Part shown: in pieces, positions 5,920-25,295 of the stretch
Numbering within the stretch: the first letter of the stretch is position 1
Layout of the letters: the number at the start of each line of letters is the position of its first letter
Source of the DNA: a virus
Length of the DNA stretch: 27,019 nucleotides
Virus record (IMG/VR): IMGVR_UViG_3300037069_001785
Location: 1-27,019 of that record
Strand: one strand, 5' to 3'
Position numbers and translations under genes: made by a program
The notes under the pieces: generated by a model
The model's database searches: none
Told to the model about the DNA's origin: nothing
What the model saw: only the letters and a program-made list of their open reading frames with translations

Positions 5920-7235
5920 ACAGCCCAGATCCAACCCTTAAAAAGGGTCACGTTGAATTTAAGACAGGCTTTTGCACCGATTGCGGAGATTCATTCCAGT
6001 ATCCCAAGCATTTCAGCAAAGAGCTAAGACCAGTCCTATGTGAAGCCCACGATCCAGCTAATGCAATCAAAATAGATCTATCTGAATTTGACGATTACTC
6101 CAATGGAGTAACTAACCAAAATCCTGGATCTTATAAGGTTATAGACGTAGATGGAGCTAACTGGCATGTCTCCGTTAGTGATGACAATCCATGGCTCATT
6201 CACGGCACTATGCCGCCGATGACAGCGAGCACGGCAACACCATTTACTACGAATGCCCCATTTACCAGCGGATATAGTCAGATCATCACCACGGCATCTC
6301 CTGTTGCTGGTTATTTTACTACTCCAGGTCCTCAGGGTAATAAGTTCTCCGACTCTCGGAGAATGAAGTCTGCTGATGAGATCAGGTCTGAGTATAATGC
6401 TCGTCTGTACAAGCTACAGATGCCAGAGGTCTGCGATATTAGTCTTCCAAGGCCTAGGCATGGCAAGCATGTAACAATCATACATGCGGGTGATGTACAT
6501 ATCGGTACCGATGCCTGCACCTACAGAGCCTTCAAAGAACTCCTAGAATATGTCCTACAAGCTCCCGACACATATATCGCTTTCCAAGGCGATCTAGTTG
6601 ACGTTCTCACAGCTCATAGTGTAGGTGTTATGGCTGAACAGGCCATGACGATCCAGGAGCAGTTCACTCTAGCCACTGCAGATCTTATGCCGCTGGCTAA
6701 GGCTAATAAGATACTATGGGTTATCAAGGGTAATCACGAGGATCGCCTAGACCGTGCCACTAAGAACATCGTAGATGGAGCTCAGTGGATGGCCCGCGTC
6801 TTAGACGTGAACTATCTATATACTGAGGGCTACACTCGTCTACATTGTGGTGATGCTAGCTATCTCTCCTACAATCTCCACGGCTTCAATGCCGGTAGCT
6901 CAGCCGGTGCTCGTAGGAACAAGATGGACTCTATGCTCACCAAGTTCCCATCTGCTGATATTATCACTTGTGGACACAACCACCAGTTAGATATCATCCA
7001 GCGCGTAGATGATACTATTCTTCCAAACAACCAGCGGGCTCATAAGCAGCGTTGGGGACTCTATACAGGAACATTCCATTCCTATATCGGCTATCCAGCC
7101 GAAGCAGGTCTTGGAGCTAGCCCACTGGGTGCTACAGCAGTTCACTTCGATATAGAGTTCAATACCATCAAGCCTGAGATTCTCCCTGTTGTTCCAATCA
7201 ATGGGGTTTATAGGATACAGTTACCTGTACGATGA
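5916..7235 (+). CDS. Calcineurin-like metallophosphoesterase with zinc-ribbon-like N-terminus
   Basis: A two-metal phosphoesterase; the substrate is unknown (nucleic-acid ends, cyclic nucleotides and phosphoproteins are all possible for this fold). From CTG 5916 it has 439 residues. The family motifs occur in order: GDVH (D193, H195), GD (225-226), GNHED (272-276), a His in NLHG (H322) and GHNH (353-356). The segment before the first ATG (residues 1-98) carries C20-x2-C23 and C42-x2-H45, which looks like a zinc-binding knuckle, followed by a Ser/Thr/Pro-rich linker to about residue 145. From ATG 6210 the product would be 341 residues and still hold the whole catalytic domain, so both forms could exist. 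The start rests on GGAGG at 5905 and the CTGA overlap. The stop overlaps the next gene (ATGA). Confidence 0.88.
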   Translation: MNSPDPTLKKGHVEFKTGFCTDCGDSFQYPKHFSKELRPVLCEAHDPANAIKIDLSEFDDYSNGVTNQNPGSYKVIDVDGANWHVSVSDDNPWLIHGTMPPMTASTATPFTTNAPFTSGYSQIITTASPVAGYFTTPGPQGNKFSDSRRMKSADEIRSEYNARLYKLQMPEVCDISLPRPRHGKHVTIIHAGDVHIGTDACTYRAFKELLEYVLQAPDTYIAFQGDLVDVLTAHSVGVMAEQAMTIQEQFTLATADLMPLAKANKILWVIKGNHEDRLDRATKNIVDGAQWMARVLDVNYLYTEGYTRLHCGDASYLSYNLHGFNAGSSAGARRNKMDSMLTKFPSADIITCGHNHQLDIIQRVDDTILPNNQRAHKQRWGLYTGTFHSYIGYPAEAGLGASPLGATAVHFDIEFNTIKPEILPVVPINGVYRIQLPVR

Positions 7236-7441
7236 TTTCAATCAATACCCGAGTAAGTGAATTAGAAGCAATCTTAAGACCAGCTGCTGTTCCTCCCAAT
7301 CTCTCTTGCAATAGATGCGATGGAACTGGTCACAATATCAGTCTTCTATCTCCGGAGCCATTCTGCCCTCAGTGTAAGGGAACCGGATTTGCTGATTCTT
7401 CTCGACGTAAAGCAAGAAAGCTCGCTTCTTTAAGAGCCTAA
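7232..7441 (+). CDS. Small zinc protein with two DnaJ-type CxxCxGxG motifs
   Basis: A 69-residue protein with two CxxCxGxG motifs, CNRCDGTG and CPQCKGTG, separated by about 12 residues. These are the zinc-binding repeats of the DnaJ (Hsp40) cysteine-rich domain, which normally has four; two are enough to form one zinc site. There is no J domain. The C-terminus is basic (SSRRKARKLASLRA). It overlaps the metallophosphoesterase gene by four bases (ATGA) and sits 40 bases before a Clp-type ATPase. It could be a substrate-binding or adaptor protein for that ATPase, which is inference. Similar motifs occur in other small phage proteins of unknown role. Confidence 0.85.
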   Translation: MISINTRVSELEAILRPAAVPPNLSCNRCDGTGHNISLLSPEPFCPQCKGTGFADSSRRKARKLASLRA

Positions 7442-7481: not shown

Positions 7482-8495
7482 ATGGTCGATCATTCGTATC
7501 AACAGTTAGCGAATCGGCTTGAAGTATTAAGAAGCGGTCTAGAAAGCTCCATCATAGGGCAGTCTGTCGCTATAGACACAATCATGGGATCTTTAGAAAG
7601 GTACCATGCTGGTCTACACGATCAGAAGCATCCAATTGGGTCATTCATGTTGATTGGCCCAACAGGATCTGGTAAAACCTATTCGGTAGAGACTCTTGCT
7701 TCTAACCTTCTCCCCAAGGAATCATTTATACGGCTTGACTGTTCGGAGTTCTCTCTAGAACAAGACGTATCAAAGATCTTCGGGGCAGCACCAGGGTATA
7801 TCGGTTCTGATAGCCCTTCTATGCTCGCCCGCCTATATAATGATATCCCGAATAAAGAGAATGGCTTTATCCTTCTACTTGACGAGATCGAAAAGGCAAA
7901 TAGGAAATTCTTCGATAGCTGGCTACAAGTATTAGATGCAGCTAGACTAACGGATGCCAAGGGAAATGTAATGGACTTTTCACGTTGCCTAATCTTTATG
8001 ACTAGCAACGTGGGCGCAGACTTTTACTCAGATAAAACAGATATAGGATTCAGAGCTGCCGGGAACCGCGAAAACATCAAGAGAGTAGAGGCACAAGTCT
8101 CTGAAGCTCTTAAGAAGAATTTCAAGCCGGAATTCCTTAATCGCCTAACGGGAGTAGTTCATTACTCTCCCCTTAGCAAGGACCAGCAGGGTATGATCCT
8201 TAACAATATGCTTGGAGAGTTGAACGCCCGACTCTCCAAGCATTACATCCGTGCAGAGTTCTCTCCCGAGATGTACTCTCACATCTTGAACACAGGCTTT
8301 AGCAAAGAGTACGGAGCTCGTGAACTCAAGAGGACACTTATCAAAATTATAGAACAGCCACTGGCCAAGCAGATCATTAACCGTAGTGTAGATCAAGATA
8401 GCTTGATCGAACTGGGTCTAGAGAATGGTGGACTATACGTAAGGCGGATTGGTGACTACCCAATCCTAATGGAAGAGAACGTAGCCTCAGCTTAA
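7482..8495 (+). CDS. Single-ring Clp-type AAA+ ATPase (ClpA/ClpC/ClpB D2-like unfoldase)
   Basis: A 337-residue AAA+ protein matching only the second ATPase ring of Clp/Hsp100 unfoldases. Walker A is GPTGSGKT (59-66), the pore loop is GYIG (105-108), Walker B is LLLDEIEK (131-138), sensor 1 is TSN (174-176), the arginine finger lies in KPEFLNR (R221) and sensor 2 is GARELKR (278-284). All key residues are present, so it should be an active hexameric motor. N-terminal and D1 domains are absent. After sensor 1 it reads DIGF (187-190); ClpA and ClpC carry IGL or VGF tripeptides here that dock onto ClpP, while ClpB lacks one. It may therefore work with host ClpP, or act alone in head assembly. 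The gene lies between a DnaJ-type zinc protein and the portal. Confidence 0.93.
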   Translation: MVDHSYQQLANRLEVLRSGLESSIIGQSVAIDTIMGSLERYHAGLHDQKHPIGSFMLIGPTGSGKTYSVETLASNLLPKESFIRLDCSEFSLEQDVSKIFGAAPGYIGSDSPSMLARLYNDIPNKENGFILLLDEIEKANRKFFDSWLQVLDAARLTDAKGNVMDFSRCLIFMTSNVGADFYSDKTDIGFRAAGNRENIKRVEAQVSEALKKNFKPEFLNRLTGVVHYSPLSKDQQGMILNNMLGELNARLSKHYIRAEFSPEMYSHILNTGFSKEYGARELKRTLIKIIEQPLAKQIINRSVDQDSLIELGLENGGLYVRRIGDYPILMEENVASA

Positions 8496-8505
8496 GGGGT
8501 AACCC

Positions 8506-10989
8506 ATGGAGTTCCTGCAAAGGGAATTTAGTCCATCTCAAAACCAGAGCAGCGAACTACCTGCCTGGTTTGAGTTTACGTCCCCACGTATAGTACCAAC
8601 TAAGAGTGATCAGATCTCTCCCAGCAGGTCTTTATGGGATCAGTACAATAAGCGCAAAGAGATAGAAGAGAAGCACAGTACGGACTTCTATGCCATCATG
8701 CAGGCCGTGGCCCAAGATGGATATGTTAAGACCGCCGTTAGTAAGTATGTAAACTCTATCTTCCTTCGTGGTTATCAGGTCCATAGTCTTAAGAAGGATC
8801 TTATAGACTATCTTCAGCTACGTTTAAGATTCGTTTCAGAATCTATGGGAGAGAACACCGATAACTTCTTCCATCGTATAGCCTATGACCTAGTGGCTTA
8901 TGCCAATGTCTATGTTCAAAAGATTAGGTTCGACTACCCAGATAAGGTTCTTCCCAAGAGGTTAAAGTCTATCAAGGGCTTGCCTATTATGAAGAACAAA
9001 AAGCTGGTGAGTAGAGATCCTATAGCTGGATATGATCTTATTCATCCAGCCACAATGCATATCTTTAGAGATAGATTCGGTAACGTTGTTCGCTATGAAC
9101 AATGGCCACTCTATGCCCGGAAGAGACCGACTGATCTCAAGCAGATCAGAGTATATGATCCATCTGAGATCGTACATATTGTCATCGACAGAGAAGATAA
9201 CTTCGCCTACGGTACTCCGTTCCTGGGTGCAGTCATCGATGATATTCGCATGCTTCGCCTTATTGAAGATCATGCTAGCAGACTAGCTTTCAGATACGCC
9301 TTCCCATTCACCCAGGTCCGTATTGGTGATATGAAGCCGGGCTTCCAGGCAACTGAAGAAGACCTAATCTACTATCGTAGACTAGTAGGCGAGGCTCCTC
9401 CTGATGCAACTCTTGTTACCAATGAAAAGGTCAAGTTTGAGGTAGTAGGAGCACAAGGTGCAGCTATTGATCTTAGCCCATACCTGAAGCACTTTGAAGA
9501 TAGAACTTTCACGGGCCTACAGGTACCCGCAGTATCTATGGGACGCGGAGACTCTGCATCACGTAGCACCGCAGACGCCATGACTACAGAAATGCATGAC
9601 CAGATCAAGCATTTCCAGAACATCATGTCTCGCGCTATCTCAGATGAGATTTACCAAGAGCTCTTAAGAGAAGCGGGCTATTCGTTCTTCGACGATGTTA
9701 AGAATGATGCCAAGATGGTCTTCGAAGAGATCGAAGTAGAATCAAAGATCAAGCGAGAGACCCACATCATGGGACTCGTACAAGCCAATCTAATCACCAT
9801 TAGTGAAGCTCGTATTATGCTTGGCAGACAGAAATTCACAGATACCGAATGGGAAGATAGTTACCTTATCAAGGTACTTATACCACAGGCTATCGTCAAA
9901 GATACCGGCCTTATCGATCTCGATGAGCATGGTAAGCTCAAGCTTGAAGCTCATAAAACAGCTATCGCACAAGCCAAGGCTGAAGTGGATAATGTCAAAG
10001 CAGCTACTGATAATACCAAGGCTGATACTGATCAAATCAAGAACACTCCGCCTCCTCAAAATGATGGGCCCCACACTACAACTACGAAAACTCATCATGT
10101 TACTACTGGTGGCGGCAAGAGATCAGTCAAGAAGACTGTTCAGATCAAGAAGCCTATGGGACGCCCACTCTCTGTTAAGTCGGGACCTAGCAAAGGCACC
10201 GACAATAAGAACCGTCCAGCTAATCAGCATGGCAAGAAATCGGGCCCTAAGAGAAGTACAGAACTTCACATATCGGAGTCTGTTACCTCTCATAGTGTAG
10301 ACTTCCTTACGACAGTTTCTCGCTTCGAGACTGCTATCAGGGAGCTTTATAAGGATCTGCAAGGCGGCGCTATAGAGCAGGGCATAGTCTATATGAGAGA
10401 TATCAATAAGACTGAACCTAAGCTCGCAGAGCTACTCTTCAATCTTATTGAAGATCGTCTGACTTCTGTCTCTCGTTCGTACCTTATGCCAGCGTACCGT
10501 GAGGGCTCTACGGCATTCTCAACCCAAGCATTAGAGCGCGGATTGATTATCTCCCCAGTAGAAGACTTCTGGCTTAATGAACGTAAAGCTCTAGAAGAAT
10601 TCAATGAAAAGACGATGGCTAGACTTGTTAGGGATGTAGCTAGACCTACCCTAACTGCTATCAAGAAGGCCACGGATGAGACTGCCCTAGCCGAGAAAGT
10701 TAAGGCTATTTTTGAAGCCCAGTCTTATCGTCTGACCCTCATCGCCAACACAGAATGTCCACAAGCATTCTGGTTTGGATATGCCTCTGCGGCCTATGCA
10801 GCTGGTATAGATCTAGATGTTGTAGCTGAAGCTGATGCATGTGATGACTGCCTAGAACAGCCAGGATTTGAACATCTTTCTTCTGCCAGAGCAAGACTAA
10901 AGAAGACTCCCACAGTCCACCCACAGTGTGATTGTGCCTTGGAAATAGCCGTTGATCCGGAAGAAGACGACCAGGAAACCGGCGAGTAA
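8506..10989 (+). CDS. Portal protein fused to a MuF-type head morphogenesis domain
   Basis: The portal forms the ring through which DNA enters and leaves the head. This 827-residue product is far longer than usual portals (about 400-550). Residues 1 to about 480 have portal features, including VHIVIDREDNFAYG and YGTPFLGAVIDDI around 223-250. A coiled-coil-like segment follows (about 485-512, KAEVDNVKAATDNTKADTD), then a basic, disordered Pro/Gly/Lys linker to about 585 and a helical region. The end is a MuF-like module with C779-x2-C782 and HPQCDC (805-810), the typical Cys/His pattern of SPP1 gp7/Mu gpF family minor head proteins. The start follows AAGGGG. The acidic tail (DPEEDDQETGE) is overlapped 38 bases by the next gene in another frame. 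Confidence 0.92.
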   Translation: MEFLQREFSPSQNQSSELPAWFEFTSPRIVPTKSDQISPSRSLWDQYNKRKEIEEKHSTDFYAIMQAVAQDGYVKTAVSKYVNSIFLRGYQVHSLKKDLIDYLQLRLRFVSESMGENTDNFFHRIAYDLVAYANVYVQKIRFDYPDKVLPKRLKSIKGLPIMKNKKLVSRDPIAGYDLIHPATMHIFRDRFGNVVRYEQWPLYARKRPTDLKQIRVYDPSEIVHIVIDREDNFAYGTPFLGAVIDDIRMLRLIEDHASRLAFRYAFPFTQVRIGDMKPGFQATEEDLIYYRRLVGEAPPDATLVTNEKVKFEVVGAQGAAIDLSPYLKHFEDRTFTGLQVPAVSMGRGDSASRSTADAMTTEMHDQIKHFQNIMSRAISDEIYQELLREAGYSFFDDVKNDAKMVFEEIEVESKIKRETHIMGLVQANLITISEARIMLGRQKFTDTEWEDSYLIKVLIPQAIVKDTGLIDLDEHGKLKLEAHKTAIAQAKAEVDNVKAATDNTKADTDQIKNTPPPQNDGPHTTTTKTHHVTTGGGKRSVKKTVQIKKPMGRPLSVKSGPSKGTDNKNRPANQHGKKSGPKRSTELHISESVTSHSVDFLTTVSRFETAIRELYKDLQGGAIEQGIVYMRDINKTEPKLAELLFNLIEDRLTSVSRSYLMPAYREGSTAFSTQALERGLIISPVEDFWLNERKALEEFNEKTMARLVRDVARPTLTAIKKATDETALAEKVKAIFEAQSYRLTLIANTECPQAFWFGYASAAYAAGIDLDVVAEADACDDCLEQPGFEHLSSARARLKKTPTVHPQCDCALEIAVDPEEDDQETGE

Positions 10990-11404
10990 AAGAGCTAAGA
11001 AGAAGTCTAGCAACTCTGTATCTCGCACAAAAACAGCACTAAAACACCGTACTACTACCCTCAGGAAGCGTAGAGTAGCCCCGAGCTTTATAGAGAAGCT
11101 CATGTCGGGTGCTCTTAAGCGTTTAGCTATAGCTGCCATCCCTCAATACCGAATCCCCAGGACGGGAAGAAACACTGGCCGAGCCTACTATGTAGACTTC
11201 GCCATCCCCAAGTTGAAACTGGCGATAGAATGCGATGGAGCGGCTTATCACTCCACCGTGGCTCAGGTACGTCGAGATAAGAAACGACAGGCCGAGATAG
11301 AAGAACAGGGATGGACATTCCTAAGATTTTCTGGAAGTCAGATTGTGACCGATATGGCGACCTGTGAGCAAGTCCTACAAACTCTCTGCAAAGGGAAGAA
11401 GTAA
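10952..11404 (+). CDS. DUF559/Vsr-like PD-(D/E)XK endonuclease
   Basis: A 150-residue putative DNA endonuclease starting at TTG inside the portal gene. The core has the DUF559 layout: a helix with E48 (FIEKLM), then YYVDFAIPKLKLAIECDG with D82, E93 and D95, H100, R108-D109, and GWTFLRFSG near 120-128. These are the expected catalytic acids of the PD-(D/E)XK/Vsr-like fold. The first 45 residues are strongly basic and may bind DNA. Substrate specificity is unknown: repair-type nicking, packaging-related cutting and a solitary homing-like role are all possible. The ATG at 11101 would remove E48 and the basic region, so TTG is preferred. The stop overlaps the protease start (TAATG). Confidence 0.85.
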   Translation: MIRKKTTRKPASKRAKKKSSNSVSRTKTALKHRTTTLRKRRVAPSFIEKLMSGALKRLAIAAIPQYRIPRTGRNTGRAYYVDFAIPKLKLAIECDGAAYHSTVAQVRRDKKRQAEIEEQGWTFLRFSGSQIVTDMATCEQVLQTLCKGKK

Positions 11405-13236
11405 TGGCTCTTAAGCGCTTCAACGAAGACTTTGCATTTGCTCTGCCTGTTTTTAACGAGGCAGCTCAGACTCATGTCATTGAGTCTCTAGTCACCGAAG
11501 GTGATGCAGGCCAGCAAGGTCTAGAAGTAACATTTGCAGCTATCCATGAAGGACTTACGCGGAACGATACGTTCTACACTCGCGAAGGTCTAACCAATAA
11601 GGTCCGCAATGATCAGGGACAAATTGGTGGTTTGGAGAGCTGGACCAATCCCTATAAGGCTCCTATCCTCCTCAACCATGATACAACCGTAGATCCTATC
11701 GGTCGTGTCAAAAAGGCTGAGTGGAAGGAAAAGGCGGGAGCTGAAAAGGGACATGTAGAGATTACTGCCCTCATCACCCAACCCGATGCTATCCAGAAGT
11801 TCCTTCGCGGAGAGTATGCTACCGGTTCCATCGGCATGGACGTAGATAAGGCTAATTGCTCTATCTGTTCTGCTGACCGTCTAACCAACTGGTGCGATCA
11901 CCAACGCGGCAAGTGGTATAAGAAAGCCCCTAAGGGTCATGAAGCCGAGGGTTCCTGGATCGAAGCTATCGACCATGAAGCCGGTGCTCGTCGTGCTCAC
12001 ATCCAAATCGGGAACGTATGGGCCCGTGAATACTCGATAGTCAATGTTCCCTCGGACATGCGTAGCATAGCTAAGTCTATGCAAGTAATGGAATGTGCCT
12101 TCACCGAATCTACTGGTGCAGTTACTCACTTACTTGATGCCCCTGCCGTTGTGGAATCAGTCCAAACTAATACAGGAGATCCCGTGGCTGACGTTACAAA
12201 TACTGATCCAGCGGCTACTACAGAGACAGTCACCGAGAAGTCGGTAGCTGAGCTATGCCAGGCCTTCCGCACCGAACTGGATGCCGATGTCCTCTCGCTA
12301 TATACGGCTATTACATCGGAAGCAGCAACTTATGAGCTATCCGATACTCACACTTATACTCAGGCCGAGCTTGAGAAATTCGCTACCTACATCTTAGAAA
12401 ACAACGAAGATCTAGAAGCTGAGCTGAATGAGATCAAAGAGTCCGTACTATCGAGCACGAATACAGCAGATCTACCAGATTCCGCATTTGCTCTAGTTAA
12501 AACGGTGGGTGAGAAGGCCCTCCGTATACTTCCTTTCAAGGATAATAAGGGCAAGATCGAAGTAGCTAAGCTCGTCACTGCTCTGTCTCGTTGTGGCCAG
12601 ATCTCTGGACTGACCAAAACCGAACAAGCTAAGGTACTCAAGAAGCTCCGTGCCGCCGCCCTAAAGCGCGGCTTCTCTGCGTCTACAGATGAGGAGACTC
12701 AGGCTGAAATCACTGCTGCTAAGGAATTCCTTGCTGCAAATGGTATCACCCTAGAGACTGCTCCAGTAGCTGGAACCGAAGAGCTAACCACTAAGGTGGC
12801 TACTCTGGAGGGCCAGCTAGCTGACCTGAAGGTTCTAGTAGAGGAACGTGAGACTGAAAATGCCGAGCTCGTAGAGCAGGTCAGTGAACTAAAGATCTCT
12901 GCCGAAAGCCAGACGAAGGCCTCGGTAGTGGAGAAGATTCTCGCCCTTGAAAATGTAGCACCAGATGCCCGCGAGGCACGTGTTACAGAGCTTACCAAGG
13001 AAAGTGCAGAGAATCTGAATGGAGTCCTGACTACTCTTCAGGAAGCTAATCCAGATGAAGTACTCGTTATCCAGCGCCTTACCAAGTCTGGTATGTCCGT
13101 TGGAACCAACGAAGATGAGAATTCCGAAGAAGACAAGCCGACCCTCACCCGTGAGGATATCATCAGCGCCTTCTTAGGATCAAAGAAAAGCCGGGAGACT
13201 GTCTCGGCTGCAATAAAAGCCAGTCGTAGTAAGTAA
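11404..13236 (+). CDS. Prohead maturation protease fused to scaffold-like region
   Basis: A 610-residue protein joining a prohead protease with a scaffold. The N-terminal third shows LLNHD with H92, PIGR (98-101), TGSIGMD with S142 and REYSIVNVPS (208-217), the layout of S78-type phage maturation proteases; H92 and S142 are the likely catalytic pair. After S142 comes a Cys/His cluster, C152-x2-C155 and C164-x-H166, probably zinc. Residues about 355-424 (LPDSAFAL, then RILPFKD) look like the helical domain often found behind phage proteases. Residues about 458-505 are a heptad-rich coiled coil, and the Glu-rich end resembles scaffolds that are cleaved out of the prohead. All arginine codons I read are CGN. 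It is followed by the decoration and capsid genes. Confidence 0.88.
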   Translation: MALKRFNEDFAFALPVFNEAAQTHVIESLVTEGDAGQQGLEVTFAAIHEGLTRNDTFYTREGLTNKVRNDQGQIGGLESWTNPYKAPILLNHDTTVDPIGRVKKAEWKEKAGAEKGHVEITALITQPDAIQKFLRGEYATGSIGMDVDKANCSICSADRLTNWCDHQRGKWYKKAPKGHEAEGSWIEAIDHEAGARRAHIQIGNVWAREYSIVNVPSDMRSIAKSMQVMECAFTESTGAVTHLLDAPAVVESVQTNTGDPVADVTNTDPAATTETVTEKSVAELCQAFRTELDADVLSLYTAITSEAATYELSDTHTYTQAELEKFATYILENNEDLEAELNEIKESVLSSTNTADLPDSAFALVKTVGEKALRILPFKDNKGKIEVAKLVTALSRCGQISGLTKTEQAKVLKKLRAAALKRGFSASTDEETQAEITAAKEFLAANGITLETAPVAGTEELTTKVATLEGQLADLKVLVEERETENAELVEQVSELKISAESQTKASVVEKILALENVAPDAREARVTELTKESAENLNGVLTTLQEANPDEVLVIQRLTKSGMSVGTNEDENSEEDKPTLTREDIISAFLGSKKSRETVSAAIKASRSK

Positions 13237-16791: not shown

Positions 16792-16896
16792 AAATCACCT
16801 GAAGGATTTTCCTAATGCCAAAGATTTATGGCGCGTCAACTGTGAAAAGTTCCGTGCCCCGTAGGGCATTTAGGAATATATCCTCACAGGTGATTT
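16792..16896 (+). promoter_or_regulatory. Inverted repeat bracketing the giant gene's ribosome binding site
   Basis: AAATCACCTG (16792-16801) is an exact reverse complement of CAGGTGATTT (16887-16896). AAGGA (16802-16806) and ATG 16815 lie in the 85-base loop, directly next to the left arm. Folding could reduce or shape ribosome access to this gene. A chance 10-bp repeat is also possible. Confidence 0.35.
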
Positions 16897-19800
16897 CTTT
16901 TTCTGCGGGCGGGATTCAATATAGTCTTGCTCCCAATCAGTCTGTATCCATTGTGCATACAGATGCTGACACCTCCACAGATATCGTACAGCTCGTAGCA
17001 TCTGGGATTCTACTTGAGCTAACTGTCTATGGAGCTAAGACAGTCGTACCTACCCCAGTGGAAACATCTACTCCTGTTGTAGCTGCTCCAGTGAGTTTCA
17101 CTTCCGCTACCCAAAGCTCGATCACCGGGAATATCGACGGCATAACTATCGATAGCTCTACGGGAGCTTGGGTGCTATTGAATGGTAGTAGAATGCTCTA
17201 TGCCAGCTCTAGGCTTAGACAGCAACCTGCGGCTGGACCAGGGTCCTCGGTGACTATTGGTGCAACCATGCAAAGAAACTCTATAGCTGGTGCATTTGGC
17301 TTCGCTATCTATACAGATGGAAGCCCTAAAGCCGGGTCCTTCGCCAATGGTATTACAGTCCATTATGAATCTAACGGCCTATGCCAGATCTATCAACTAC
17401 AGAATAACGTCTGGAATGATATATCCAATCAAGCTAATAGTGTTCCTTATCCAATGGATACCAATGAACATAGCTATGCAGTAGTTGTTCAGAATCCAAA
17501 TAGCTCTACCTTGAACATCACAGCATTTGTAGATGCTGTGCCTGTCGCTACTGCAGTTGTGACAGGTGGTAACTTTGTCACTAACGGAACTATCGGCTTC
17601 TCCACATCTGGAGGATGCCCACCGGTTCTGATTGCTCCTAACAGTTTCCAGTTCTCTCTGGGAGTAGGACTATTACAGAATCTACCTATTGCCGGACAAG
17701 CTATCATCCACACCGATGCGCAGGGCAATCCCCTGCTAAACCTCAATCCTAGTGGTGGTGCAGGTGGTGGACAAATAGGCACACTAGGTCAGGCTAATAA
17801 TGATCCAGCTGTTCTCTTTGGATCTGTGACCGGTACTGCAAAGAATCTTGTCCCTGACTCTGATCTCAAATTCGGGTCTACTCTATCCAACACCTCACAT
17901 GCTGGAGCACTTTCTGTTGTTCCGGGTACGGGGCTATCAGGCGGTAAGGGTATTGTTTTCTCACAGCCTACAGGTATCAATACCAGTATCGGACCACTGC
18001 AATGGCAGTTTGGCACGATAGCAGTTGTAGCTGGGCAGATATGTTCTCTATCTGGCAATATCCAATGCGCAGGAGGCACCCAGGGCGGTTCAGGTCTACC
18101 GGCTTGGGAGCTATGGAGTGTTAATACTGATGATAGTCTTAATACAAGACTTCTACATGCTGATCAGCAGCTAGGTCAAGGAACTCCTTCTGATGGGAAG
18201 TCCCGTGTTAAGTATGAGAACTATACTATCCCAGGTGGAGTCACCGGGGTAGCTGTTGTTGCAGCAACCAACGGCGTAGCTCTAACAGCACTTACTAACC
18301 TCATATTCTCAGAGCCACAATTAGAGTTTGGTCCCTACGCCACGGCCTATAGTTCTAATATACTATCTGATCAAACTTCTGTGGTTCCATATGGCACAAT
18401 GGATGCGCCTATTCAATCTGGTATTGATAGCGCTGGCCGTCTAAACCTTGGTAGCCCTCAGCCTGGAGTACAAGTTCCTCTTGGAGCAAACTCCTCACAG
18501 GTTGTATCTACTATTGCTTCAAGCCAGATCAATGGTACGTATATGAAGCCTATCACTATTGCCAATTCTACGATTGGTCCTAATACAGTTACTAATGATA
18601 AGGCTCAGAGCAATACTTATACCAATACAACTGCAAACATCTTCAACAACGTATCAAGTAACTATAGCTGGTATGTACCTGGGATAGGAGCAGTTACCGT
18701 TGCTAATACCATAGCTGATGGTAGCTCTCTCATCTATAGTGTTAATACAGTTGATCCAGCGACTTCTCCGGCTCCTACTGCTGAGACCTTAAAGATCGCG
18801 GCTAATTCTACTATAACCGTGATATTCAATCATCCACCTTATGTGGCCAGTGCCCCTTATAGCACTAAGATTGCATTCACAGGATCGACAGCATCGGTGA
18901 CTGCTAATGTTGTTCAGAGCGCCTCTATCGGAGATAGTTCTGCTCCATCCATCACTGCATCTACCACACCGTCTACCACTACCCCACAATATACAACAGG
19001 ATTTTCCAACACTGGTAACCCTTCTATTACCAGTTCTATTTCTTCTACTCCAGTCAATCAAGCTGTTACTACTGGATTCTCGGATAGCCAAACTGCAGCC
19101 ATTACTAGCTCTCTAAACTCTTCTACTAGTAATGATCCATTCACGGGTACTGTTGGTTCTACTGCTTCTACTCCAAGCATTACATCTTCATCTAATACTA
19201 CCACGGCAACTATTTCCAATAGCCAAGTAGAGAACAATACCTCTACTCCGACTATCACAAGTAGCACTGGATCAGTACCTACACTGACTGCAGAATCTGG
19301 CAGTGGATCAGCTAGTTCAACAGCGCAGATAGTTCCTACTTTCCATGCCAACGTGGCAAATACCCAGAACAGTACAGCCACTACTCCAGAGGCTTCTACC
19401 AGCTCTATAACCCAGAACGCCAATACTACCTATTCCAACAATGCGTTTACTGGGACTAACACAGCTGAGAATTCTACAGCAACTATCACTAGAGTAGCTA
19501 ATCCCGCTACATATACTAATGTAGCTACTACTACTGGAGCTAACGGAACTTCCACTGCTACCATTTCCTCCACTACTGTTCCCGGTAGCTCTAGCCAGGT
19601 ACAGAGTACCGCTTCGGCTTCCGGTAGTTCTACTAGCTCTATTTCATCATCGGCTGATGCCATAACTACTTCTAATCAGTCTAATACCTCTCAGGCTTCA
19701 GCTATTTCCTCTACGGCAAGTATCTCTAGTACTGCCGATGCCCCGGTATATGTAACCCAACAGCAGAGCTCTAGTCTTCCAACTGCCACATCTACAGCGA

Positions 19801-22800
19801 CTATTGCCAGTACTGCGGATGCGCTTACCTATTCTGATATTCTACATTCCCAGGCTAATGGAGATAGCGGCTACAGCACTGCCCAAATATCCCTTACTAG
19901 ATCTAGTGTTCAGCAGACTAGCAGTGGAACTGTCACTACCGGAGTATCTACTACCACATGCATGGCAGGAACAAGCCTAACGGTAAATTCCTACTATAGA
20001 AGTACCTATACTCATACTACTCATCATGTAGGCACGGATACAATTGATGTCTATACATCAATTGTATATACAGACACAATAACTATTACAGGTCCTAGCT
20101 CTTATTCGTATACAGCCTCTGCTGGCCTTCAACCATTTTCCGTAACAGTACCCTATGATGGAGTCTATACGGTAGTATCTTCTTCTTCTACCAATGCTGT
20201 AGACTCTGAAGATAGTCCAATATCCGGTGCAAGTAATACAAATACACTTTCTATTACATGGAATCAGCTTAGCCAGAGCTACACTTCTGCTAATGGATCT
20301 TGGGTTAATTTTGCAGTTTCCCCAAGCGTTACAGAAGCTCCAGTAGACTCTGCTCATCAACTTACCTTATATAGCCCTAGTTTCTCGTTACACTATCAGA
20401 CTGGGAATGGTCCTCTTCTAACTTCTGATGGTTTTACTGGAGGATCCTTTAGCGATAGTACAGGATCGTATTCTGTAGATATAAGGTTGATTGCTCCAAA
20501 TGGATCAACGGTCTTGCAGACTTGGACAGCAGTTACTGGAGGACAAACTATTCCTTACTATGCTGCTGGGGTACCTGCGGGTGTCTATACATTCCAAATA
20601 AGAGTAACTATTATAAGTAATACAAGTTCAAATACTGCTAGTCGTGGAGTTAGTGGAACTTCTAATTTGTCTTGGTATCAATCAGATGCTAATCCTCAGA
20701 CATATACTCATACCGCCACTAATGGATCTAGGGTTGTTATTGGATCAACCCCATCTAGTACTCTAGCTCCTACAAGCTTAGGTACAGCTATTTCCCTGAC
20801 ACCAAGTAATGTTACTAACGCAAGTGATAGTAATGGTGATACAGCATTACAAGTAGAGTTATACTCTCCATCAAATGCTTTACTTGCCACCTTTAGGGCA
20901 AGCACAACTACCTACACTTACTATAATTCCAGCGCGGCTGCCGGGATATATACTTGGAAAGTATTTACTCTACCTGTAATTTTAAGTGGATCAGACTCAA
21001 CGACCAACTACTCTACCTCATACCCGGGTTCATGTCAGGCAACAATGACATGGTATCAGCAAGTAGCTACTTCCCAGACATATACCCATACAGCATCCCC
21101 CGGTACCTTAGTAACTGTGGGAAGTTCTGGTTCTGCTATTGCCCCGGTATCATCGAGTACTGCAATTACCTTCATAGCTGGGTCTGGTACTGTATTGCCA
21201 ACAAGCTCATTTGGTACTGGTACGATGACGCTATTTCTTCTAAATCCGTCTGCTATTCAGGTAGCTTCTTTTACTATTTCTTCTACCTCGCAGCTTTGCA
21301 CTTACTTCAATGCATCAGCCCCAGCGGGTATCTATACTTGGAAAATGCAGACATCTGCAACTCCAACAAATACAGATGATACGAATAACTACTCCACTAC
21401 AATTCCAGGAACTATCGCCGGTACTGTTGGTTGGTATGTAACAGTCAATAATCCTCAGACCTACACACATACTACGAGTAATGGCTCTACTGTTGCTATT
21501 GCCTCAACTGGTAGTGCATCTGCTCCAACTTCTACTTCCACGCAGCTCAGTTTTGCAGTAGGATCTATTACTGTACCATCTGATAGTAATGGAGGCTCTT
21601 CCTTTAGTGTTCAGCTCTATAGCCCAAGCAACGCCTTATTACAGACGTGGACTGGGATAACTTCTACTCAAACTCTGACCTATGCGGATGGATCAGCTAC
21701 TTCTGGGGTTTACACATGGAAAGCTTTCTCTATTGCAGCACTAGGATCCATTGCTTCTACGGCCAATGTTTCTAGTTCTTACGCCGGGTCTATCGCCGGT
21801 ACTATTGGTTGGTATACTCTAGTAACTATTCCTACAACCTATACTCATTCCACTGCTAATGGAGCTACAGTAACTCTAGCCTCTACTCCATCTCTTAGCG
21901 CAACTGTAGGAACAGCTCTAATACCCACCAATGCAGGAACCCAATTATCCTTAACCATCTCTGGCTTAACGATACCTAGTAATGCTGATGGTTCATCTCA
22001 GTTCAACGTAACCTTACTTCGTCCTGACTCCACAGTAGCAGCTACCTTCTTATCGGTTACTAACGGACAAGTATTAACATATTTCAATGCCTCAGCGGCT
22101 TCAGGCGTATATGTATGGAAGGGATATACATCCTGCACTATTTCTGGGTCTGTGAATAACACTCAGAATATATCTGATAGCTATAGCGGAGTATTGACTG
22201 GTACTGCGCAATGGTATGTTTCTACGGTTAATCCGACAACGTATGTTTATACAGATACAAGTGGTACAACTAATACATTAACCACTCCAGTAAGCGCCTT
22301 AGCAGCTTCGTCTGGAACGCCGCATACTCTCGTATTGACCGGAATCAACTGTCCATCAGATGCTAATGGATCCAGTGCCCTTCAAGTACAGCTATTCAAT
22401 CCCAACAATTCTATGGTTCAGTCTTGGACTGTTAGTACAAATCAAACACTTACCTATTCTACAGCCGGATCGCCAGCAGGTGTATGGACATGGAATCTAA
22501 CAGGTATTGTTACCACAGATACACATACCAATGTAGCCTCTTACCTTGTCCAGGTATCTGCACAAGCCGGATGGTACCAAAGTGTTGGAACTACTAACTA
22601 TACCTATACAGTTACCAATGGATCTACACAGACTCTTACTACTAGCAATGTAGCTCTGGGACCAAATGCTGGTACTCCGCATACTTTGGTATTATCTGGC
22701 ATCTCTGTGCCGTCTGATGCCAATGGATCTAGCTCATTCACAGTAGTATTGAAAGATCCAAGCTCTACAACTCTCAATACCTGGACAGGTATCACGACAA

Positions 22801-25295
22801 ACCAGACTCTTACTTGGAGCGCTAGTGGGCCCTCTACTGGCACTTATAGCTGGCTTATTTTCGCTACTGCCTCTTCTAATAATGTATTAGGGGCAACCTA
22901 TAATGCTTCTGTAAATGCTAAGGCTGGTTGGTATGAGGCACCGGTTGGTGGTACTTATACTTATACAACTCCATCTGGTACAGCATCCACCTTTACTACG
23001 GACCCAGCCACACTGGCTCCAACTAGTTCAGCACAGCAGCTAACACTGGTTCTATCTTCTGTAGTAGCAGTCTCAAATAGCAGCGGAACTAGTGCTCTGG
23101 CGGTTAGCCTAACAGATCCATCCTCTGCTGTAGTTAAGACCTGGAATGTAACAGGGAACACTACTCTTAGCTACAGTGCTCCTGGAGCTATATCTGGTAC
23201 GTATACCTGGTCTATAGCAGCTGCGATTACCAATAACCTCAATACAGCTACTACTACAGTAAACTATGCAAATAGCTGTAATGTAAGTTCCGGATGGTAT
23301 CAGAATGTAAATGTATCTGTCACTACCTATACGGCTAATAATGGATCTACAGCTAGCTATCCTACTCCATCTGGTACTTTAGCTCCAACTACTGGGGCTC
23401 TACAGCTAAGCTTCAATATCACAGCAATTACTGCTGGATCAAATAGCGCTGGATCTTCGGCGTATTCTATATCTCTACTAAGACCGGATGGTTCGCAGGC
23501 CCAGCACTGGACGGGTGTAACAAGTACTCAGACCCTTACATACTTTAACGCTTCTGATCCTGGAGGGATCTGGCATTGGAGTGTCTATTCTTACTGCACC
23601 ACTACTAATACGGCCACTGCCACCTATAGCAATTCTCTAACTGCAACTGCTGGATGGTTTGAGAGTCAAAGTACTACTACAACTACCTATAGTAATAATG
23701 TCGGGGCACTATCTAGTTTTGTCACTGATCCAACAACTATAGCCCCAACTAGCCCGGCTACTCAGCTTAGCTTCAACATATCTAGCTTAACAGCTGGTAG
23801 TAATGCTAATGGATCGTCTACATGGACAGTTATATTGAAGGACTCTTCTGCTACTACTAGGCAGACATGGGCTGGATTAACTGCGAGTGCTACTCTAACC
23901 TGGTATCAAGTAGCTGCCTCGGCGGGACAATATACATGGACTGTTCAGTCGTTCTGTACTAATACCGGTACTGCTATAGATTCTTATGGAAACCATATAG
24001 CCGGGACCTTGACTTGGTATCAGGCTGTAACCACAACATCTACTCAATACAATACAGCTAACGGTGTCCCATCGGCCTACGCCACACCGTCTGGTACGGT
24101 TGCGCCTGTATCTGTAGGAACTCAACTGACGTTCCAGATTACAGCTATTTCTACTATCAGCAATTCTGCAGGTACTGGATCATACAATGTAACTCTGCAA
24201 AATTCTGCCGGTACACAGGTCCAGGCCTGGTCTTCTATTACTACTACGCAAACACTAAGCTACTCTAATGGATCTGCCATTGGTGGCAGTTATACATGGA
24301 ATATCAATGCAGTAGTAGTAAAATCTGGTAGTCCAACAACTGGTAATTATGCGGCCACCATGACCTCAACGGTGGGATGGTATATTCTACAAGCCACTGG
24401 AGCGACTGTATACTCCAACAATGCTTCTACAAGTACTTCTACGGCCAGCACTGATCCAACTACTTTGGCCCCTATCAACTCAGGGCTACAGCTTAGTTTC
24501 ACGCCGAGCTCTATTACACTGCCATCTGATTCGAAGGGCGCTACAACGTACAATGTTAGCCTTAAGAGTCCCACTGGAACAGTTATTCAGTCATGGCCTG
24601 TAACCAATACTACTCCTATCACCTACTTCAACTCAGCAGCCGTAGCTGGATCATATAGCTGGGTTATTCAGGCTCAGTGTACTAATACTGGGACCGGAAC
24701 TGAAACCTATACTACAATGATATCCGGTACGATAGGATGGCATCAGACCCTTAACTCCACCATCCTTACATGCACCAATCATGATGGCAATGTAGCGTCT
24801 TATAGCACCCCAGCTAATACTGTTGCACCAGCTGCTTCTGGAACTCAACTTACACTTAGCCTTGATACGGTTATAACTCCAAGCAATTCTCAAGGCACTA
24901 GCTCTATAGCAGTTCTGCTTTATGATCCTACGAATACCCTTATAAGTGCCATAACCACAACGGGTATAACCTCCTCAAGAACTATCCACTACTTCAATGG
25001 CTCTGCTATTGCCGGAAGTTATACTTGGGTTGTGTGGGGTCAGTGTTCTAATAATGGTACAGGAGCCAGCACCTATGCTGTGTCGTGGTCTGGTTCCCAT
25101 TCCTGGTATCAGCCTCAGACTTCGAATGCTCAGGTCTATATCTTAGCGAATGATAACTTCACTCAAAGAATATCCGTAGCCGATTCGAATGTAGACTTCC
25201 AGACCGTATCTCCAAGCCAGGTGCAGTTCCAAATAACTAACTCAGCTTCGTCAGCGCTGACCTTCACCTTAGGCGTCATAAGTACAGGATTCTAA
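16815..25295 (+). CDS. Giant modular fibre/adhesin-like protein
   Basis: A 2826-residue protein without frameshift or stop. Residues 1-80 form a small domain, possibly the virion anchor. About 89-284 resembles a concanavalin/LamG-like beta-sandwich (GAFGFAIYTDG, EHSYAVVVQN). About 343-514 resembles a carbohydrate-binding jelly roll (NLVPDSDLKFG near the start, PQLEFGPYATAY at the end). About 709-1049 is a Ser/Thr-rich stalk with short repeats. From 1153 to 2770 there are 13 tandem beta-sandwich repeats of 119-141 residues, then a 56-residue cap. No protease, hydrolase or membrane motif is evident. Such proteins commonly bind host surfaces or glycans as long fibres. Whether it sits on head or tail cannot be read directly; its place just after the capsid genes makes a head fibre possible. 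AAGGA lies eight bases before the ATG. Confidence 0.9.
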   Translation: MPKIYGASTVKSSVPRRAFRNISSQVISFSAGGIQYSLAPNQSVSIVHTDADTSTDIVQLVASGILLELTVYGAKTVVPTPVETSTPVVAAPVSFTSATQSSITGNIDGITIDSSTGAWVLLNGSRMLYASSRLRQQPAAGPGSSVTIGATMQRNSIAGAFGFAIYTDGSPKAGSFANGITVHYESNGLCQIYQLQNNVWNDISNQANSVPYPMDTNEHSYAVVVQNPNSSTLNITAFVDAVPVATAVVTGGNFVTNGTIGFSTSGGCPPVLIAPNSFQFSLGVGLLQNLPIAGQAIIHTDAQGNPLLNLNPSGGAGGGQIGTLGQANNDPAVLFGSVTGTAKNLVPDSDLKFGSTLSNTSHAGALSVVPGTGLSGGKGIVFSQPTGINTSIGPLQWQFGTIAVVAGQICSLSGNIQCAGGTQGGSGLPAWELWSVNTDDSLNTRLLHADQQLGQGTPSDGKSRVKYENYTIPGGVTGVAVVAATNGVALTALTNLIFSEPQLEFGPYATAYSSNILSDQTSVVPYGTMDAPIQSGIDSAGRLNLGSPQPGVQVPLGANSSQVVSTIASSQINGTYMKPITIANSTIGPNTVTNDKAQSNTYTNTTANIFNNVSSNYSWYVPGIGAVTVANTIADGSSLIYSVNTVDPATSPAPTAETLKIAANSTITVIFNHPPYVASAPYSTKIAFTGSTASVTANVVQSASIGDSSAPSITASTTPSTTTPQYTTGFSNTGNPSITSSISSTPVNQAVTTGFSDSQTAAITSSLNSSTSNDPFTGTVGSTASTPSITSSSNTTTATISNSQVENNTSTPTITSSTGSVPTLTAESGSGSASSTAQIVPTFHANVANTQNSTATTPEASTSSITQNANTTYSNNAFTGTNTAENSTATITRVANPATYTNVATTTGANGTSTATISSTTVPGSSSQVQSTASASGSSTSSISSSADAITTSNQSNTSQASAISSTASISSTADAPVYVTQQQSSSLPTATSTATIASTADALTYSDILHSQANGDSGYSTAQISLTRSSVQQTSSGTVTTGVSTTTCMAGTSLTVNSYYRSTYTHTTHHVGTDTIDVYTSIVYTDTITITGPSSYSYTASAGLQPFSVTVPYDGVYTVVSSSSTNAVDSEDSPISGASNTNTLSITWNQLSQSYTSANGSWVNFAVSPSVTEAPVDSAHQLTLYSPSFSLHYQTGNGPLLTSDGFTGGSFSDSTGSYSVDIRLIAPNGSTVLQTWTAVTGGQTIPYYAAGVPAGVYTFQIRVTIISNTSSNTASRGVSGTSNLSWYQSDANPQTYTHTATNGSRVVIGSTPSSTLAPTSLGTAISLTPSNVTNASDSNGDTALQVELYSPSNALLATFRASTTTYTYYNSSAAAGIYTWKVFTLPVILSGSDSTTNYSTSYPGSCQATMTWYQQVATSQTYTHTASPGTLVTVGSSGSAIAPVSSSTAITFIAGSGTVLPTSSFGTGTMTLFLLNPSAIQVASFTISSTSQLCTYFNASAPAGIYTWKMQTSATPTNTDDTNNYSTTIPGTIAGTVGWYVTVNNPQTYTHTTSNGSTVAIASTGSASAPTSTSTQLSFAVGSITVPSDSNGGSSFSVQLYSPSNALLQTWTGITSTQTLTYADGSATSGVYTWKAFSIAALGSIASTANVSSSYAGSIAGTIGWYTLVTIPTTYTHSTANGATVTLASTPSLSATVGTALIPTNAGTQLSLTISGLTIPSNADGSSQFNVTLLRPDSTVAATFLSVTNGQVLTYFNASAASGVYVWKGYTSCTISGSVNNTQNISDSYSGVLTGTAQWYVSTVNPTTYVYTDTSGTTNTLTTPVSALAASSGTPHTLVLTGINCPSDANGSSALQVQLFNPNNSMVQSWTVSTNQTLTYSTAGSPAGVWTWNLTGIVTTDTHTNVASYLVQVSAQAGWYQSVGTTNYTYTVTNGSTQTLTTSNVALGPNAGTPHTLVLSGISVPSDANGSSSFTVVLKDPSSTTLNTWTGITTNQTLTWSASGPSTGTYSWLIFATASSNNVLGATYNASVNAKAGWYEAPVGGTYTYTTPSGTASTFTTDPATLAPTSSAQQLTLVLSSVVAVSNSSGTSALAVSLTDPSSAVVKTWNVTGNTTLSYSAPGAISGTYTWSIAAAITNNLNTATTTVNYANSCNVSSGWYQNVNVSVTTYTANNGSTASYPTPSGTLAPTTGALQLSFNITAITAGSNSAGSSAYSISLLRPDGSQAQHWTGVTSTQTLTYFNASDPGGIWHWSVYSYCTTTNTATATYSNSLTATAGWFESQSTTTTTYSNNVGALSSFVTDPTTIAPTSPATQLSFNISSLTAGSNANGSSTWTVILKDSSATTRQTWAGLTASATLTWYQVAASAGQYTWTVQSFCTNTGTAIDSYGNHIAGTLTWYQAVTTTSTQYNTANGVPSAYATPSGTVAPVSVGTQLTFQITAISTISNSAGTGSYNVTLQNSAGTQVQAWSSITTTQTLSYSNGSAIGGSYTWNINAVVVKSGSPTTGNYAATMTSTVGWYILQATGATVYSNNASTSTSTASTDPTTLAPINSGLQLSFTPSSITLPSDSKGATTYNVSLKSPTGTVIQSWPVTNTTPITYFNSAAVAGSYSWVIQAQCTNTGTGTETYTTMISGTIGWHQTLNSTILTCTNHDGNVASYSTPANTVAPAASGTQLTLSLDTVITPSNSQGTSSIAVLLYDPTNTLISAITTTGITSSRTIHYFNGSAIAGSYTWVVWGQCSNNGTGASTYAVSWSGSHSWYQPQTSNAQVYILANDNFTQRISVADSNVDFQTVSPSQVQFQITNSASSALTFTLGVISTGF
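18940..19960 (+). repeat. Ser/Thr-rich stalk repeats, about 23-27 residues each
   Basis: Within the giant protein a degenerate unit recurs roughly every 25 residues, typically containing a TPSITSS or TATISST core followed by polar residues and often FTGT, GFS or TADA. Examples are NPSITSSISST, TPSITSSSNTT, TPTITSSTGS and STATIASTADA. The DNA is too diverged to be a simple satellite, so the unit is selected at protein level. It probably forms an extended beta-rich shaft. Confidence 0.7.
20271..25124 (+). repeat. Thirteen tandem beta-sandwich repeats
   Basis: Repeat starts fall at about 20271, 20694, 21072, 21453, 21831, 22233, 22593, 22953, 23316, 23673, 24036, 24399 and 24759. Each unit runs through TYTxxxNGS, an APTS-x-TQL strand, SDSNGSS, a LYSPSN strand, TQTLTY, AGxYTW and ends at GWY or TWY. 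The first five are 126-141 residues; the last eight are 119-122. Many late units carry a single Cys (as in FCTNTG). The central strand pattern recalls PPC or P-domain folds, a weak resemblance only. An additional divergent unit may precede at about 19960-20270. Confidence 0.88.

Follow-up and report, generated by a model that had tools for sequence, protein, structure and literature searches.

The window analyzed here, a 27,019-nucleotide stretch of viral DNA, encodes a ClpA/C-like AAA+ protein of 337 amino acid residues that consists of a single D2-type ring and carries a candidate ClpP-docking tripeptide. The tripeptide, the single-ring architecture and the place of the gene in the head operon are all conserved in three divergent viral contigs. 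With some reserve, we favor the interpretation that this protein is a minimal, D2-only unfoldase of the ClpA/C type with host ClpP as its docking partner; hexamer formation, docking, the use of host ClpP and the substrates are what we infer. Phage ClpA-like proteins with the tripeptide are already known from jumbo phages, where they have two rings and often occur alongside a phage ClpP. The D2-only form and the fixed place in a head operon are new.

Domain composition of the phage Clp protein

The best Pfam matches to the Clp protein, AAA_2 (residues 51-223, E = 1.5e-35) and ClpB_D2-small (residues 231-307, E = 2e-17), together span the sequence, and the remaining matches are generic AAA models. 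The protein is one Clp/Hsp100 D2-type AAA+ module without the N-domain, D1 and the middle domain. Its N-terminus lies just ahead of the D2 ring, in the linker helix, i.e. at the D2 boundary, and it has one Walker A motif versus two in ClpA, ClpB and the Clp proteins of phages 121Q, PA5oct, Atu_ph07, VnaP and qdvp001. All features that define membership in the D2 module are present (Walker A and B, sensor 1, arginine finger, sensor 2 and a GYVG-type pore loop). Residue equivalences come from aligning the protein with E. coli ClpB and ClpA; all D2 residues for catalysis and translocation are kept, including sensor-1 N176 (ClpB N719). Thus, the preliminary description of this DNA, which saw only a D2-like Clp ring with intact ATPase motifs, is borne out by both Pfam and the alignment. 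The gene and its motifs are located as follows.

7482-8495, + strand: single-ring (D2-only) ClpA/C-like AAA+ protein, predicted unfoldase, 337 aa (Pfam, PHROG, AlphaFold, Foldseek); start ATG at 7482, stop TAA at 8493-8495
7656-7679, + strand: Walker A GPTGSGKT, residues 59-66; K65 corresponds to ClpB K611
7794-7805, + strand: pore loop 1 GYIG, residues 105-108, aligned to ClpB GYVG; Y106 corresponds to ClpB Y653
7881-7886, + strand: Walker B D134-E135, corresponding to ClpB D677/E678
8040-8054, + strand: D-I-G-F-R with the candidate ClpP-docking tripeptide (IGF codons 8043-8051), in the ClpA IGL column; DLGFR in both orthologues
8142-8144, + strand: arginine finger R221, corresponding to ClpB R756
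8319-8321, + strand: sensor-2 arginine R280 (GAR), corresponding to ClpB R815
8451-8472, + strand: lineage-specific C-terminal tail G-[DA]-Y-P-x-L past the last D2 strand, kept in all three orthologues

Two orthologues, 51% and 46% identical to the window protein, were found on other IMG/VR contigs, G003 (111 kb) and G004 (33 kb), which, like the window contig (G000, 27 kb), are genome fragments. These contigs were reached via a search of viral contigs with the capsid protein; scanning viral contigs directly with the single window Clp sequence retrieved no relatives, and scanning genome contigs with the capsid protein in search of the host gave no match. Both orthologues are likewise single-ring proteins (332 and 338 aa). 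Since they keep the same boundaries and there is no D1 upstream, we rejected the possibility that the window protein is a remnant of a two-ring Clp produced by fragmentation or a frameshift. The G-[DA]-Y-P-x-L tail is missing from ClpA and ClpB and, among the proteins compared, occurs only in these three; the C-terminal end (8451-8495) is possibly a partner-binding tail.

A conserved candidate ClpP-docking tripeptide

Residues I188-G189-F190 fall in the exact column of I617-G618-L619 of E. coli ClpA, whereas E. coli ClpB has G730-E731-L732 there and no motif. The position of DIGF after sensor 1, where ClpA and ClpC have their loop for ClpP, had been pointed out in the preliminary description together with the lack of the tripeptide in ClpB; both observations hold, the tripeptide being missing from all ClpB-type rows of the alignment. 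Loss of the tripeptide with retention of the ATPase motifs, which had been named as evidence against docking, was not seen in either orthologue. At 46-51% identity, the two orthologues retain all ATPase motifs and an LGF tripeptide, with DLGFR in the DIGFR column and a variable sequence in the rest of the loop. When the loop of the window sequence alone was shuffled, a hydrophobic-G-[FLMY] pattern appeared somewhere in it in 3.75% of shuffles, so that the tripeptide in a single sequence is weak by itself and conservation carries the case: the pattern never appeared in one shared column of all three orthologues in 200,000 loop shuffles.

We then surveyed the pattern hydrophobic-G-[FLMIY] in an alignment of D2 domains with 55 rows of bacterial or viral origin. 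Nearly all ClpA/C-type rows, both bacterial and phage, have the tripeptide; the exceptions are locus L068, which has GGF in this column, and a divergent plasmid protein, LactoClp595, which lacks the motif. No ClpB, ClpK, TssH or ClpL-type row in this alignment has it. This distribution can be read against what is known of the motif, which distinguishes ClpP-binding ClpA from ClpB and Hsp104, and the ClpA loop, when put onto ClpB (BAP), yields a ClpB variant able to feed ClpP (PMC5540906). The clefts of ClpP receive the IGL loops of ClpA and the IGF loops of ClpX (PMC7707817), and plastid ClpB3 has no IGF motif and hence does not dock (PMC7966870).

Predicted structure and classification

The AlphaFold2 model of the monomer, built with 36 D2 sequences, has a pLDDT of 90.4 and a pTM of 0.86; the IGF loop is among its few flexible parts (residues 181-200, pLDDT about 65). 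The best Foldseek matches in the PDB are ClpC chains, many of them from ClpC-ClpP complexes, interleaved with crystal structures of ClpB NBD2, and the best PDB matches by sequence are also ClpC. The match to phrog_4871 (ATP-dependent protease), a phage ClpA-like family, is confined to profile positions 455-754 of 764 (E = 3e-80) and does not extend over the two rings. In a maximum-likelihood D2 tree, the three single-ring proteins form a clade of their own (100/100 support, stem of 1.76 changes per column), whose branch the tree leaves undecided: neither union with the ClpB group (AU p = 0.34) nor union with the ClpA group (p = 0.19) is rejected.

Among the class 1 features of ClpA and ClpC, the tripeptide after D2 sensor 1 is present, and the pair of D1 and D2 rings and the N-domain are not. 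Because two defining parts (D1 and the N-domain) are missing, we do not claim identity as ClpA or ClpC; that the protein works like ClpA/C is a prediction from its loop and fold. It differs from ClpB in the docking tripeptide, present in all three proteins, and in missing the middle domain and D1. A ClpX homologue was rejected on profile score (40 bits versus a cut-off of 359), and the zinc-binding domain of ClpX was not found.

NCBIfam profiles score ClpB best (236.9 bits versus 224.0 bits for ClpA), a difference that does not separate the families. This score, along with the D2-only form, which resembles Skd3/CLPB, whose structures were matched by sequence, would fit a ClpP-independent remodelling chaperone or disaggregase of the ClpB/Skd3 kind that aids the folding or assembly of portal, capsid or tail proteins, with IGF as the leftover of a ClpC-like ancestor. 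We regard this main alternative as somewhat unlikely: at 46-51% identity, one would expect a vestige to have decayed, yet the tripeptide is kept in all three proteins while the surrounding loop varies. Genomic context, to which we now turn, bears on the same question.

Gene neighborhood in the head operon

The three contigs share the gene order TerL, a 497-aa protein, metallophosphatase, Clp and portal, followed by an MTES_1575/DUF559-type nuclease, a protease/scaffold protein, a 438-aa protein and the major capsid protein. The survey of neighbors that the preliminary description had proposed therefore places the Clp gene in the same slot, between the metallophosphatase and portal genes, in three divergent contigs. 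The neighbors in the window are listed below.

6210-7235, + strand: calcineurin-like metallophosphatase (PF00149, phrog_7339), upstream neighbor with conserved synteny
7232-7441, + strand: 69-aa protein with two DnaJ-type CxxCxGxG zinc-finger halves (PF00684), directly upstream of Clp
8506-10989, + strand: portal protein with a C-terminal extension (phrog_9232, E = 3.4e-49), downstream neighbor
10952-11404, + strand: MTES_1575/DUF559 (VSR-like) nuclease between the portal and protease genes, overlapping the end of the portal gene; position kept in both sister contigs
11404-13236, strand not given: head maturation protease (PHROG match)
16815-25295, + strand: 2826-aa Ser/Thr-rich repetitive protein, with no Pfam match in its first 1200 residues

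The C-terminal extension of the portal protein has weak similarity to a head morphogenesis family (phrog_1657, E = 0.003). In each of the three contigs the Clp gene immediately precedes the portal gene, which is consistent with the remodelling-chaperone alternative, as are the DnaJ-type zinc-finger open reading frame just upstream in the window and the DnaJ gene found immediately ahead of the phage clpA in PA5oct and Atu_ph07. The PF00684 match of the 69-aa protein (E = 4.9e-6, 27.1 bits) is, however, under the curated cut-off of 32.7, and no zinc-finger open reading frame was found between the metallophosphatase and Clp genes of either sister contig, which counts against that alternative and also makes a general DnaJ-Clp operon pairing a weak rule.

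Moorella phage MTATph1 and Bacillus phage KLEB27-3 share with these contigs the order of the TerL, metallophosphatase, portal, protease and capsid genes, and neither has a Clp gene in the head module or elsewhere in its genome (positive controls worked). Because these related head modules lack it, we count the Clp gene as an accessory: either one lineage gained it in a head module of an already known type and retained it, or the others lost it. KLEB27-3 presents the mirror image of the window lineage, having a ClpP gene (OM634661.1, 100121-100735) and no Clp/AAA_2 ATPase. The earlier claim that no standard phage head module carries such a gene was too strong, since a gene for a two-ring Clp adjoins capsid/head genes in the Vibrio phages VnaP and qdvp001, and jumbo phages carry ClpA-like genes; what stands is that the single-ring form and the fixed slot are unusual.

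An accessory gene missing from related head modules would also suit a moron-like role, that of a counter-defence or host-takeover factor unfolding or degrading a host defence or regulatory protein, unconnected with virion assembly. We consider this highly improbable: there are no defence-specific neighbors, the PADLOC matches are partial and cover only the common AAA core, and the slot of the gene among co-directional structural genes suggests that it is expressed late.

Candidate partner protease

No ClpP gene was found in the window or in the two sister contigs (27, 111 and 33 kb, all partial), and the same search was positive in 121Q, PA5oct, Atu_ph07 and KLEB27-3. This makes host ClpP the natural partner, although, with all three contigs being fragments, the result only leans that way, and a ClpP gene could lie in unsequenced parts of the lineage genomes. 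Docking with a phage-encoded ClpP from elsewhere in the genome, as may hold for jumbo phages with both genes, has its parallels in 121Q, PA5oct and Atu_ph07, where ClpA-like and ClpP genes occur together, and in KLEB27-3, whose head module is a cousin of this one and which has ClpP and no Clp ATPase; we judge it quite improbable given the lack of ClpP in the three partial contigs, the longest being 111 kb. A ClpP-like prohead protease in the same operon was rejected as the partner: the product of 11404-13236 matches head maturation protease, and the window has no CLP_protease match. Searches for ClpS found no gene, and neither an adaptor nor an N-domain that could select substrates was found for the window Clp.

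Proposed mode of action

According to the host-ClpP interpretation, the protein would assemble into a hexamer that, driven by ATP, threads proteins through a tyrosine-lined pore, and its (I/L)GF loops would dock this hexamer on a host-supplied ClpP tetradecamer. In this way the phage would acquire a machine for degradation that makes its own choice of substrates, and the phage probably feeds proteins of its own choosing to the host protease. Given the constant position of the gene within the head operon, the most probable clients would be proteins of virion assembly (portal, scaffold or capsid protein in excess or wrongly assembled) or host proteins encountered late in infection. A more specific version, in which the unfoldase draws host ClpP to proheads under assembly and clears scaffold or defective portal or capsid protein, is in our estimation rather unlikely; such a quality-control or scaffold-exit route, if true, is not known from other phages. 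In two-ring Clp proteins, the D1 ring aids hexamer assembly, so a D2 ring on its own may assemble poorly.

If docking on ClpP is true, the protein is a natural minimal ClpA/C, in which a lone D2 ring does both the unfolding and the docking, with neither D1 nor an N-domain. It would then allow a direct test of the contribution of D1 to ClpAP, and the phage would be steering host proteolysis from inside a structural operon. If the protein does not dock, the conserved tripeptide needs a different explanation.

Relationship to known Clp proteins

The D2 ring of ClpC (B. subtilis, S. aureus and M. tuberculosis ClpC1) is the best PDB match in sequence and fold and has the same D2 motifs, and in B. 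subtilis ClpC VGF stands in the column of IGF; ClpC differs in having an N-domain, D1 and a middle domain, and identity is about 34%. E. coli ClpA shares the D2 ATPase residues and has IGL (617-619) in the column of IGF (188-190), but possesses two rings and a ClpS-binding N-domain. ClpX, too, has a single AAA+ ring, and it docks ClpP through IGF (PMC7707817), but it belongs to another AAA+ family and has a zinc domain. The mitochondrial disaggregase Skd3/CLPB is also a single-ring protein. Skd3 carries ankyrin repeats, and we know of no ClpP partner for it.

The Clp proteins of 121Q, PA5oct and Atu_ph07 (phrog_4871) and of VnaP and qdvp001 are phage-borne, have a hydrophobic-G-[FLM] tripeptide and are often encoded near structural genes, as here. 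These jumbo-phage and Vibrio-phage proteins differ in their two rings (724-765 aa) and separate clade, and several of the phages have their own ClpP. Atu_ph07 encodes seven Clp-family proteins, most Rak2-like phages have a conserved ClpA, and roles in virion assembly or stress have been suggested (PMC6102473).

Literature searches turned up no single-ring Clp described from a phage. Of the 80 best-ranking viral loci for the D2 alignment, complete single-ring proteins are those of the window lineage and of loci L060 and L062, and other short open reading frames are mostly at contig ends; L037 (650 aa) has one Walker A motif by pattern. The L060/L062 viral Clp (498 aa; 6503-7984 of L060, strand not given) has one-ring size and a D2-type or related AAA module, but differs in a 170-aa N-terminal extension, a longer loop (L060) and VGY in the docking column. 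Two proteins of uncultured phages in BFVD, A0A6J5MDF8 (488 aa) and A0A6J5MAM5 (356 aa, only 21% identical), are further one-ring-sized candidates with a D2-type or related AAA module. No operon shared by the window Clp and any of these proteins was seen. Judged from these sequences, a single ring is rare among phages, not unique; all four huge-phage genomes checked have two-ring proteins, three of them with the tripeptide.
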